A DNA stretch of 64,000 bases, taken from contig NZ_AOMO01000066.1 in NCBI RefSeq assembly GCF_000338875.1, forward strand, positions 124,001 to 188,000, written 5' to 3'. Of this stretch, positions 38,666 to 42,383 are shown piece by piece (position 1 is the first letter of the stretch; every line of letters starts with the position of its first letter). Source of the stretch: Vibrio mimicus CAIM 602. Lineage in GTDB: Bacteria > Pseudomonadota > Gammaproteobacteria > Enterobacterales > Vibrionaceae. Below the pieces are notes generated by a model that saw nothing but the letters and a program-made list of their open reading frames with translations, searched no databases and was not told where the DNA came from. The translations under genes were made by a program, and so were the position numbers.

Positions 38666-39688
38666 TTATTTTTTTGCGTGATAGATAGCGAATTTACTGG
38701 TTTTCGCTGCAATATCGCAGTGGCCAAACGCTTGCTCAATGATGGGCGGATATTTCAAAAAGCTATTCGCTACCACCCAGATGGAGCCAATTTGGGTGAG
38801 GTGATTAACGGATTCTTCCAATAAGCGTTCTGTGGCGCTGTAGCTGGTATCCAATCCTGAGTGGAATGGTGGATTGGTAACAATATAGTCGTACTTGTGC
38901 TTGGTGTCTGAAAACATATCCGATGGGTAAACCGTGCCACGCAACTGGTTAGCGAGTAAGGTTTCTTGGCTAGAACGGATCGCCAGTGCGCTGATGTCAG
39001 TCATCTCTAATTCAATATTAGGATTGAGTTTCGCCATGACACAGCCAAGTACACCTGCACCACAGCCGATATCGATGACTTTGCCACTGAGCGTAGGCAA
39101 AGTATCAAGTAGCAGCCGACTACCTAGGTCAAATTCACCGTGGCTAAAGACGCCGGGTAAACTACGAATGGTGAGATCATGGCCTTGATAGCTTACTGAA
39201 TAGGACTTAAACCATTGCTCAATATCAAAAGCCGCAGGCGAGTTAACACATTGTCCCCAATAGAATGAGCAGCGGCGCGCTGAGTCATATTTGTGGATTG
39301 GCCCATAAGGTGCGAACATCTTTTCAATGCTTTTTACGCCAGAGCGATTTTCGCCAACGACAACAATTTCTGTCCCTGTACCGAGCTTTGCAAGCAGCAT
39401 GGCGAGCAGGTATTCCGCTTCTTGTTTGGCTTTTGGCCAGTAGAGCAGGATCAAATCAGCGTTGATTTCATCAGCGAGTTGTTCGCCGAAGTAACAGTTA
39501 ATCTCAGAATATTGTTTGAGCTGAGAATAGTAGCCGTAGTGAGTGGTAAACACGGAAACAGAGGCGCAATGTTGACGGAGTTCGACCGGAAAACGATCTT
39601 CTGCTTCGCCCGCAACCAAAACATGCTTATCAGCAAAATAGTCGAGTTGGCGAAGGGCGATTTCAGTCGGGGCGGTATAGTGTTGCAT
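38666..39688 (-). CDS. rsmC: 16S rRNA m2G1207 methyltransferase RsmC
   Basis: Methylates N2 of G1207 in helix 34 of 16S rRNA using SAM. It has 340 residues, as in E. coli (343). The N-terminal half is a degenerate methyltransferase domain that aids folding; the C-terminal half is catalytic, with SAM motif DIGCGAG (206-212) and the guanine-methyltransferase motif NPPF (272-275) followed by HSGLDT. It is transcribed on its own, with a hairpin upstream that ends the neighbouring gene. Confidence 0.95.
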
Positions 39689-39761: not shown

Positions 39762-40847
39762 TCAGCTTTTATCTTGTTGGTCTAAAAATCCACGAAACTC
39801 TTCTTCGTAGATATTAAAGAGCACCATTGTGATAGCAAAAATCAGCGGGCCGTAAATTAAGCCAATCAAGCCAAACAACTGAATACCACCAAGTAGTGAG
39901 AAGAAAATCATCAGCGTGTTCATGCCTGCACTGCCTTGCATCAAAAATGGGCGCAGCAGGTTATCAATCGACCCCACCACCGCAATGCTCCAGATGGCGA
40001 GGAAGATGGCCCATGTGGTTTCGCCAGTTAAAAACAGATAGAGCGTTGCTGGAATCCAAATCAAAGCAGTACCAACAACTGGGATGAATGAAGCAAATCC
40101 CATCATGGTTCCCCAAAATAGCCCAGGGAATCCGGCTAACCACATACCAATCCCACCCGCTAAGCCTTGAGCTATCGCAGTTAAGAACGAACCCATGACC
40201 GCTGATTTAGAGACGTTTTCAATTTCACTGAGCAAACGGTCTTCTTGGCTGCGCGATAGGGGCAAAATATGGCGGATAGCACTGATGATCTTGTCGTGAT
40301 CACGCAGTAAGAAGAACAGCACAAACAGCATCAGGAAAAAATTCATCACAAAACTGGTCGCATCGCCGAGAATTTTTGCGCTAATACTGACTAAATTACT
40401 GCCGAAAGTGGTAGCAAACTGGCCGATGCGCTGCGCGATCTGTTGTGGGCTAATTTCTTCAAATGGCAGATAGTGGTTAGCTAAACTGAGCCCTTTTACG
40501 ATCCAAGGGTGGCTAAACAACTCTTGAATTCCACCGTGTGTCACCCAAGCATATAGGTTTTGAGAGAACTTCGAACCTTGCTGAACAATAGCGCCGAAGA
40601 TAAATAGTAACGGGATTACTATGATGACGGTGAGCACTACACAGGATAAAAAGGCGGCGAAGTTATCGTGTGAAGGGAGTTTTTTTTCAAACCACTCGTG
40701 GATCGGGAACATCAATAAAGAAATGATGAAAGCCATCACAATCGAGTTGATATAAGGCTCGACTAACCAATAACAAGCGAGTGCAGAAGCCAGCAAGGCC
40801 ACGACTAACACGCGATGACTGGAGGCTAATTTGATTTTTTCTGACAC
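39762..40847 (-). CDS. AI-2E family transporter (YdiK/PerM type membrane protein)
   Basis: Multi-pass inner-membrane protein of the UPF0118/AI-2E transporter family. It has 361 residues with about seven hydrophobic segments. The C-terminal signature region GSIDNLLRPFLMQGSAGMNTL, followed by GGIQLFGLIGLIYGPLI, is diagnostic of the family. Members export AI-2 (TqsA), act in Na+/H+ exchange, or are uncharacterised; the substrate cannot be assigned here. It is divergent from the small Cys-rich protein gene, with a 75-base shared upstream region. Confidence 0.88.
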   Translation of the reverse strand: MSEKIKLASSHRVLVVALLASALACYWLVEPYINSIVMAFIISLLMFPIHEWFEKKLPSHDNFAAFLSCVVLTVIIVIPLLFIFGAIVQQGSKFSQNLYAWVTHGGIQELFSHPWIVKGLSLANHYLPFEEISPQQIAQRIGQFATTFGSNLVSISAKILGDATSFVMNFFLMLFVLFFLLRDHDKIISAIRHILPLSRSQEDRLLSEIENVSKSAVMGSFLTAIAQGLAGGIGMWLAGFPGLFWGTMMGFASFIPVVGTALIWIPATLYLFLTGETTWAIFLAIWSIAVVGSIDNLLRPFLMQGSAGMNTLMIFFSLLGGIQLFGLIGLIYGPLIFAITMVLFNIYEEEFRGFLDQQDKS

Positions 40848-40922
40848 GGGAGTTGTCCACCTGAAGGAAATTGTAGAGTTATAATGACGCCAATTCAGTC
40901 GCTTAGCAATGCGGAGGTCGAT

Positions 40923-41039
40923 ATGGGTTGCTGTGATAAAAATGAATGCTGCGACAAGAAAGCTAAACGTAAGCCGATCCCATGGTTTTCGTTAGTGATT
41001 GTAGTTTTAGTGCTAGTGACTATTTATTACTGGCAATAA
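40923..41039 (+). CDS. Small Cys-rich membrane protein, 38 residues, function unknown
   Basis: ATG 40923 has a strong ribosome site (GGAGG, seven bases upstream) and a TATAAT box at 40880-40885. The protein begins MGCCDKNECCDKKAKRKP, with two Cys-Cys pairs and a basic stretch, then has one hydrophobic segment of about 16 residues (WFSLVIVVLVLVTIYYW) and ends in Gln. The cysteine part should lie in the cytoplasm by the positive-inside rule. The paired cysteines could bind metal (inference). The stop codon lies inside the minus-strand hemL terminator. I do not recognise a named family. Confidence 0.72.
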   Translation: MGCCDKNECCDKKAKRKPIPWFSLVIVVLVLVTIYYWQ

Positions 41040-41059
41040 AAAAGGCAGCGTGTGCTGCC
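41036..41059 (-). terminator. Terminator of hemL, shared with the small-protein gene end
   Basis: AGGCAGC-GTGT-GCTGCCT stem-loop followed on the minus strand by TTTTTATT, 25 bases after the hemL stop. It overlaps the stop codon of the convergent 38-residue gene. Confidence 0.88.
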
Positions 41060-41084
41060 TCTATCATTAAGCGTTTGGTCAAAA

Positions 41085-42383
41085 CTAAGCTTTTGCTTCG
41101 GCTGCCAAAATTGCAAAGCTACGGTCAGCGGCTTCCAGCGTGGCTTCAATCTCTTTTGAGCCGTGGGCTAGAGAAGTAAAGCTCGCTTCAAATGCGGATG
41201 GTGCTAAGTAAACACCGTGCTGTAGCATCAAATGGAAGAAACGCTTGAAACGTTCAACATCGCAACGTGCAACATCTTCATAGCAGGTAACGCGCTCTTG
41301 CTCAGTAAAGAAGAAGCCGAACATGCCACCCACTTGGTGTACAAGCAGTGGGATGCCGTGTTGATCAGCGAGTGATTTGAAACCATCAGCCAACTGTTTG
41401 GTTTTCGCTGCTAAGCGTTTTTCGTTGCCTTCTTGACGTAGCAAGTTCAAGCACGCATAACCTGCCGCCATAGCAATTGGGTTACCAGACAAAGTACCTG
41501 CTTGGTAAACAGGACCCGTAGGTGCGATGTATTGCATGATTTCACGACGGCCACCGAAAGCACCCACTGGCATACCGCCACCAATCACTTTACCTAGCGT
41601 AGTTAAGTCAGGCTTAATGTTGTAGTGTGCTTGAGCGCCGCCTAGAGCAACACGGAAACCTGTCATCACTTCATCAAAAATCAGCAGTGCGCCTTCTTGG
41701 TCACAGATTTCGCGCAGCCCTTCGTGGAAGCCTTCTACTGGTGGGATACAGTTCATGTTGCCCGCTACAGGTTCAACGATAATACACGCGATTTCGCCTT
41801 TATTAGCGGCAAATAGCTCGCGTACTGAGTCTAAATCGTTAAAACGTGCAGTTAAGGTATGTTTAGCAAAATCTGCTGGTACACCAGGTGAGCTTGGTTG
41901 GCCAAGCGTTAGAGCGCCAGAGCCAGCTTTAACTAGCAAGCTGTCAGCGTGACCATGGTAACAGCCTTCAAATTTGATGATTTTATCGCGGCCTGTGTAA
42001 CCACGAGCTAGGCGGATTGCACTCATGGTCGCTTCAGTACCTGAGTTCACCATGCGCAGTTGTTCCATTGACGGAACTAGCTCAGAAACCAATTCGGCCA
42101 TGGTGATTTCCATTTCAGTAGGTGCACCGAAACTTAGACCACGTTGTGCAGCTTGAATGACAGCCTCACGGATTACCGCATGGTTATGGCCAAGAATCAT
42201 TGGTCCCCATGACCCTACATAATCAATGTACGCTTTACCATCGGCATCAAAAATCAGCGCACCATCGGCACGATCAATGAAAATCGGTGAACCACCAACC
42301 CCGTTAAATGCACGAACAGGGGAGTTCACACCACCAGGAATGGTGGTTTGCGCCTTTTGATACAACTCGGCTGATTTGGTCAT
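41085..42383 (-). CDS. hemL: Glutamate-1-semialdehyde 2,1-aminomutase
   Basis: PLP enzyme making 5-aminolevulinate from glutamate-1-semialdehyde, second step of C5 heme synthesis. It has 432 residues, start [20 protein letters not shown]. The PLP-binding lysine is Lys265 in [17 protein letters not shown], the Asp that contacts the PLP ring nitrogen is in [10 protein letters not shown], and the substrate-binding region around [15 protein letters not shown] is intact. It is divergent from erpA; linkage of hemL with the iron-sulfur carrier erpA is common in gammaproteobacteria. Confidence 0.97.

Follow-up and report, generated by a model that had tools for sequence, protein, structure and literature searches.

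A 38-codon frame in the window (the whole 64,000-nucleotide stretch of Vibrio mimicus DNA that was analysed) is a real protein-coding gene, and this mini-gene is under purifying selection. Its product, MGCCDKNECCDKKAKRKPIPWFSLVIVVLVLVTIYYWQ, is best explained as an inner-membrane protein of ∼35–44 residues, encoded by a vertically inherited Vibrionaceae gene that constantly lies next to a gene of the AI-2E transporter family. Our leading reading, held tentatively and with less than even confidence, is that the protein is a one-span accessory of this transporter that faces the cytoplasm and binds a soft metal or engages in thiol chemistry, where both the ligand and the partner are what we infer. 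Coordinates of the features are collected in Table 1.

Table 1. Features at and around the mini-gene, in window coordinates
Feature	Position	Strand	Basis
Mini-protein gene, 38 codons + stop (ATG at 40923, TAA at 41037–41039)	40923–41039	+	Reading frame, conservation, dN/dS
Codons 3–10 (C3-C4, C9, C10)	40929–40952	+	Family motif CC-x(1-6)-C
Predicted membrane helix, codons 21–37, Trp37 last	40983–41033	+	AlphaFold2, Trp conservation
GGAGG ribosome site, 5 bases upstream of ATG	40913–40917	+	Sequence
TATAAT box, left end of block ATAATG-N20-CAA	40880–40885	+	Sequence, conservation
Possible transporter promoter: TTGCTA (40909–40904), 17 bases, CATTAT (40886–40881)	40881–40909	-	Inference
AI-2E-family transporter gene, divergent neighbour	39762–40847	-	Pfam PF01594, E 1.3e-53
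hemL, convergent neighbour	41085–42383	-	TIGR00713 above cut-off
rsmC, adjoining the transporter gene	38666–39688	-	NF007023 above cut-off
Terminator-like hairpin, hemL end	41041–41062	-	1 found versus 0.6 expected in shuffles

The short frame is a protein-coding gene

A sequence-only reading of this DNA had proposed the short frame as a gene preceded by GGAGG and TATAAT. All three elements are present, and the coding claim was borne out by conservation and by dN/dS of 0.06–0.13 against four close relatives (0.059, 0.090, 0.133 and 0.105; synonymous change was saturated against a fifth). It is conservation across relatives that settles the matter, as the DNA of the head alone is weak evidence: ATGGGNTGYTGY occurs once in the window versus 0.18 expected, 17 of 100 shuffles contain it, and the same genome has 13 matches to a looser head pattern. 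An alternative start at 40884, which would give 51 residues, was dropped because the conserved alignment opens at MGCC and because 40884 falls within the promoter block. Comparison of the mini-protein with Pfam and NCBIfam gave no family at cut-off, and none of the solved structures matched (best E 0.88).

The mini-gene looks specific to Vibrionaceae

The sequence-only reading had named lack of conservation of the frame in relatives as part of what would refute it, and conservation was found. A search with the protein recovered the mini-gene from 186 of the 227 genus genomes, and with a profile built from 29 relatives 258 of the 329 family genomes gave a match, covering 8 of 13 genera (weak matches L002 and L003 in the window's own genome were removed prior to counting). 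Beyond the family, relatives were sought in samples of the order (394 genomes) and the class (369 genomes) and no convincing match emerged. In the order sample, 33 Vibrionaceae genomes matched at E < 1e-11, and 14 genomes outside the family matched at E 6e-4 to 8e-3, mostly in long or stop-containing frames; in the class sample, the only good match was in the window's own genome, and two weak matches covered just residues 13–37, within frames 204 and 427 residues long. Thus, the mini-gene looks Vibrionaceae-specific. A plasmid search gave no match.

Among 20 match-less genomes of the genus that were examined, 17 still have hemL and the transporter gene near each other; the transporter gene is absent from the flank in L095 and likewise in two genomes of ∼1 Mb. 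Translation of the three forward frames at seven loci (L091–L094 and L098–L100) revealed no intact mini-gene, and L096 carries an apparent decayed remnant. The copies of V. penaeicida (L156 and L157) also look degraded. As a separate observation, the seemingly decayed copies L096, L097 and L156 retain the promoter block described below, in whole or in part.

We take hemL of V. cholerae to be VC0626, so VC0625 may be the V. cholerae mini-gene, which would then already be annotated there. Table 1 of PMC5816637 gives VC0625 as a ‘hypothetical protein’ with a log2 change of -1.140 in a ribN deletion comparison. In titles and abstract openings of the literature that was searched, neither the mini-gene nor the look-alike family introduced below is named.

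The transporter gene is the constant neighbour

The mini-gene lies between the transporter gene and hemL, as had been noted from the letters; it is divergent from the former and convergent with the latter, with both neighbours on the opposite strand. At 87 loci fetched via the mini-gene, which are best or chosen matches and not a random draw, the transporter gene is within 1.5 kb in all 87 and hemL in 83, and the two neighbours share a strand in all 83 loci that have both. Three of the four hemL-lacking loci were read further, and hemL is absent over 6.5–11 kb: in one genome other genes occupy its expected place, and in two it was not in the 10–11 kb fetched. All three retain both the transporter gene and an rsmC-like frame beside it. 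Accordingly, hemL, which the earlier reading had named as the heme gene on one side of the frame, is not a special partner (83/87 versus 87/87 for the transporter), and a link to the heme pathway was rejected.

In the reverse direction, named loci were fetched via the transporter, and the best 80 of 139 were used, a set from which records nearest the window may be missing. The mini-gene is present in 76 of these 80, opposed in direction to the transporter gene in every case, and is lacking in 4. Together with the 17 of 20 match-less genomes, these four loci indicate that the mini-gene is not obligate where the transporter gene is present, and the latter can persist without it. A relative of the transporter from another family (G340), 52 percent identical, has no mini-gene next to it. 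The window's transporter has 94 percent identity to that of Vibrio metoecus, the nearest named record among the matches listed, so the window probably belongs in or near the V. cholerae clade. Among solved structures, the transporter comes closest to YdiK (7ot9, E 1.1e-25). It is this divergent neighbour that belongs to the AI-2E transporter family (PF01594); the mini-protein is a neighbour only and not a member. The abstract of PMC7221264 reports members of this family with different functions.

A cysteine head on a single predicted helix

Residue conservation was determined on 163 loci, comprising 134 distinct and 93 nonredundant proteins. Of the 93, 89 retain C3-C4 and 90 have a third Cys within residues 5–14, but just 12 have a second Cys-Cys pair; what the family conserves is a head of the form MGCC-x(1-6)-C and not two cysteine pairs. 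The four proteins without C3-C4 include the degraded L156 and also L130, whose start was misassigned (a GTG start precedes GCC in the DNA of L130 and L134), and the true exceptions are L159 (MGYC) and L070 (MGCG). Loci of genus g9, e.g. L047, L058, L064 and L066, have the head MGCCxCGC, with four Cys within six residues.

Trp occurs among the final three residues in 92 of 93 proteins, and at least two basic residues (mean 4.05) lie at positions 9–22, ahead of the helix. AlphaFold2 assigned a helix to residues 21–37 with pLDDT ∼90 and no regular structure to the preceding residues (pLDDT 54–59), which agrees with the single membrane span of the sequence-only reading; one membrane helix is therefore predicted. 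The window's protein has five Lys/Arg at residues 12–17 and no charge after the helix, so by the positive-inside rule the cysteine head probably faces the cytoplasm. Some relatives do have C-terminal charge, e.g. FWER in the V. splendidus group. Hence, of the two cytoplasmic cysteine pairs proposed earlier, the first pair and its probable side of the membrane stand, but the second pair is not a property of the family.

Conserved cysteine ligands, as expected of a metal-binding protein, are present, and the cluster appears suited to chemistry with metals or thiols. Metal or redox sensing, suggested in the sequence-only reading, is a hypothesis favoured by the near-invariant cysteines and by a look-alike family linked to copper, but the regions upstream of the mini-gene do not share a metal-responsive site as a rule.

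A second MGCC family in a copper-linked setting

This look-alike, referred to as family 2 (MGCCNQAPNGG...), was found in 64 of 121 genomes of the Vibrionaceae and is absent from the window's genome. Outside the Vibrionaceae, it has a strong match in one sampled genome (G504) and two further weak matches, one of them full length (G493, E 8.8e-4). Two members scanned against Pfam and NCBIfam gave no match. The loci examined were L201–L212 and L234–L244 (e.g. L235:1501–1611 and L206).

Family 2 proteins resemble the window's mini-protein in having 36–40 residues, an MGCC or MSCC start, and a short head followed by a single hydrophobic stretch; both families are one-helix mini-proteins that begin with M-[GS]-C-C. 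They differ in carrying N[QK]xPxGG after the head, a motif that the window's family lacks and in whose place it has the third Cys, and most family 2 rows have no PW or terminal Trp, unlike the window's family. In a profile comparison only the first 8 residues align (probability 96, E 4.3e-9), and descent of the window's family from the copper-linked family is unproven because just these 8 columns align. When the match lists were compared by hand, the window's family was present in 48 of the 64 genomes that have family 2, so neither family substitutes for the other.

Upstream of family 2 genes we found the dyad ACCTTCC-N7-GGAAGGT, which we take to be the CueR motif. Scored as matches out of 14, it reaches at least 11 in 14 of 23 loci, a level that no more than 2 of 300 shuffles attained for any of them, and 12 of these 14 dyads lie 56–86 bases upstream (those of L234 and L211 are further away); two remaining loci score 10 and seven score 8–9. 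The 14 loci are not independent, because there are near copies among them (L205–L207 and L242–L244). Reading the dyad as a CueR operator is supported by G301, where one perfect dyad separates a copA-like gene from a gene for a CueR above its curated cut-off, a second lies at a family 2 gene and the third adjoins a gene for DmeF, and by a one-mismatch dyad before a copA-like gene in G059. Against this reading, one-mismatch sites are near background (3 versus 6 control matches in G059 and 8 versus 3 in G000), and the two G000 loci that were read, L221 and L223, have no copper gene. One family 2 gene, whose own dyad scores only 8, immediately precedes genes for a MerR-type regulator that falls short of the CueR cut-off and for a copA-like product, and another adjoins copC-copD.

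As a rule, genes of the window's family have no CueR-type operator upstream. Of 75 upstream stretches, 70 scored at most 9 of 14, three scored 10 and two scored 11, and CueR control of the mini-gene was rejected as a general feature. Fur control was likewise rejected, with sites matching 16–17 of 19 consensus bases in just 4 of 163 loci, all in genus g9 (L061, L066, L068 and L074). A fifth Fur-like site, at L016, matches 15 of 19, and the best among 815 shuffles matched 14. Any copper link of the window's family would be by analogy with family 2 alone.

A conserved block between the divergent genes

The block ATAATG-N20-CAA was found at exact spacing in 128 of 133 loci of the genus (shuffle mean 0.2, maximum 1); a recount that avoided an anchor choice favouring CAA at a fixed distance gave 126 of 129 single-anchor loci. 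Outside the genus, 1 of 30 loci has it. Among 17 loci that lack the mini-gene and have both neighbours, the block is retained in 5 and was not found in 12, and mini-gene-less loci L091–L093 have it in changed form.

TATAAT may act as a -10 box on the forward strand, with A 40892 fitting a transcription start. The block can also be read on the reverse strand as a transporter promoter, TTGCTA-17-CATTAT, both hexamers matching 4 of 6 consensus bases and falling below the promoter-scan threshold. The conserved block cannot be attributed to one gene alone, and the mini-gene and the transporter gene may be fired from overlapping divergent promoters. The ‘strong expression signals’ originally described are thus upheld in part: the ribosome site is good, but a sigma-70 promoter scan of 40700–41200 gave no site and the TATAAT block is readable for the divergent gene.

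Discussion

We consider an accessory of the AI-2E transporter the most likely of the readings, with a stand-alone buffer and a subunit of another complex close behind. In the accessory reading, the N-terminus would lie on the cytoplasmic side, the thiols of the head would either coordinate Cu(I), Zn or Fe as a soft metal ligand or make up a switch that works reversibly, the helix would pack against the transporter, and the activity or stability of the transporter would be adjusted according to the thiol state. Favouring it are the conservation and selection of the frame with its cysteines, Trp and basic residues before the helix, the adjacency to the transporter gene even where hemL is not adjacent, the high recovery of the mini-gene from transporter-fetched loci, and the same MGCC head and layout in family 2, with CueR-type operators and, in two loci, copper-gene neighbours. 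Counted against it are the match-less genomes that retain hemL and the transporter gene together, and the restriction of metal-responsive sites to a few loci, with no general CueR-type dyad.

The same head could instead serve a membrane-tethered soft-metal or thiol buffer, or a small chaperone, that works on its own and is paired with the transporter merely via a shared promoter region. This is nearly as probable as the accessory reading; it agrees with the head being the conserved part, with the varying neighbours of family 2 (several are copper or metal genes) and with a shared ATAATG-N20-CAA block that could hold the gene pair together, but the pairing persists in other genera, where the block is nearly absent. 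Somewhat less probable is a small subunit or assembly factor of another membrane complex encoded elsewhere: size and layout are like those of known accessory mini-proteins and the terminal Trp is almost invariant, but no further constant neighbour was seen and no particular complex is indicated. A small hydrophobic toxin of a type I toxin–antitoxin system, or a leader peptide dispensable as protein, is very improbable, for small size, a single helix and absence from some species are outweighed by protein-level selection, cysteine conservation, a stable gene context, the lack of any match to known RNA families in an Rfam scan of 40600–41300 and, for a leader, the lack of a same-strand gene directly downstream to control.

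AcrZ, KdpF and MgtS are proteins of <50 residues with one helix whose genes lie beside or are linked to that of a transporter, and to our knowledge they have no conserved cysteine head. The mini-protein is like them in length, in its one helix and in its gene lying beside that of a transporter, and no relation to them was found in Pfam, NCBIfam or solved-structure libraries. A further and doubtful extension of the accessory reading is that the Vibrionaceae have at least these two MGCC families of inner-membrane proteins of 35–45 residues, one CueR-linked and the other AI-2E-wired, and that both are minimal Cu(I)/thiol relays on the cytoplasmic side, passing metal or a redox signal on to a membrane transporter; they would form a new class of tethered mini-metallochaperones.

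For the AI-2E transporter family, the mini-protein is a candidate regulator. Its design, in which one helix carries nothing more than a Cys-Cys head, has been overlooked and is seen again in family 2 under copper regulation.
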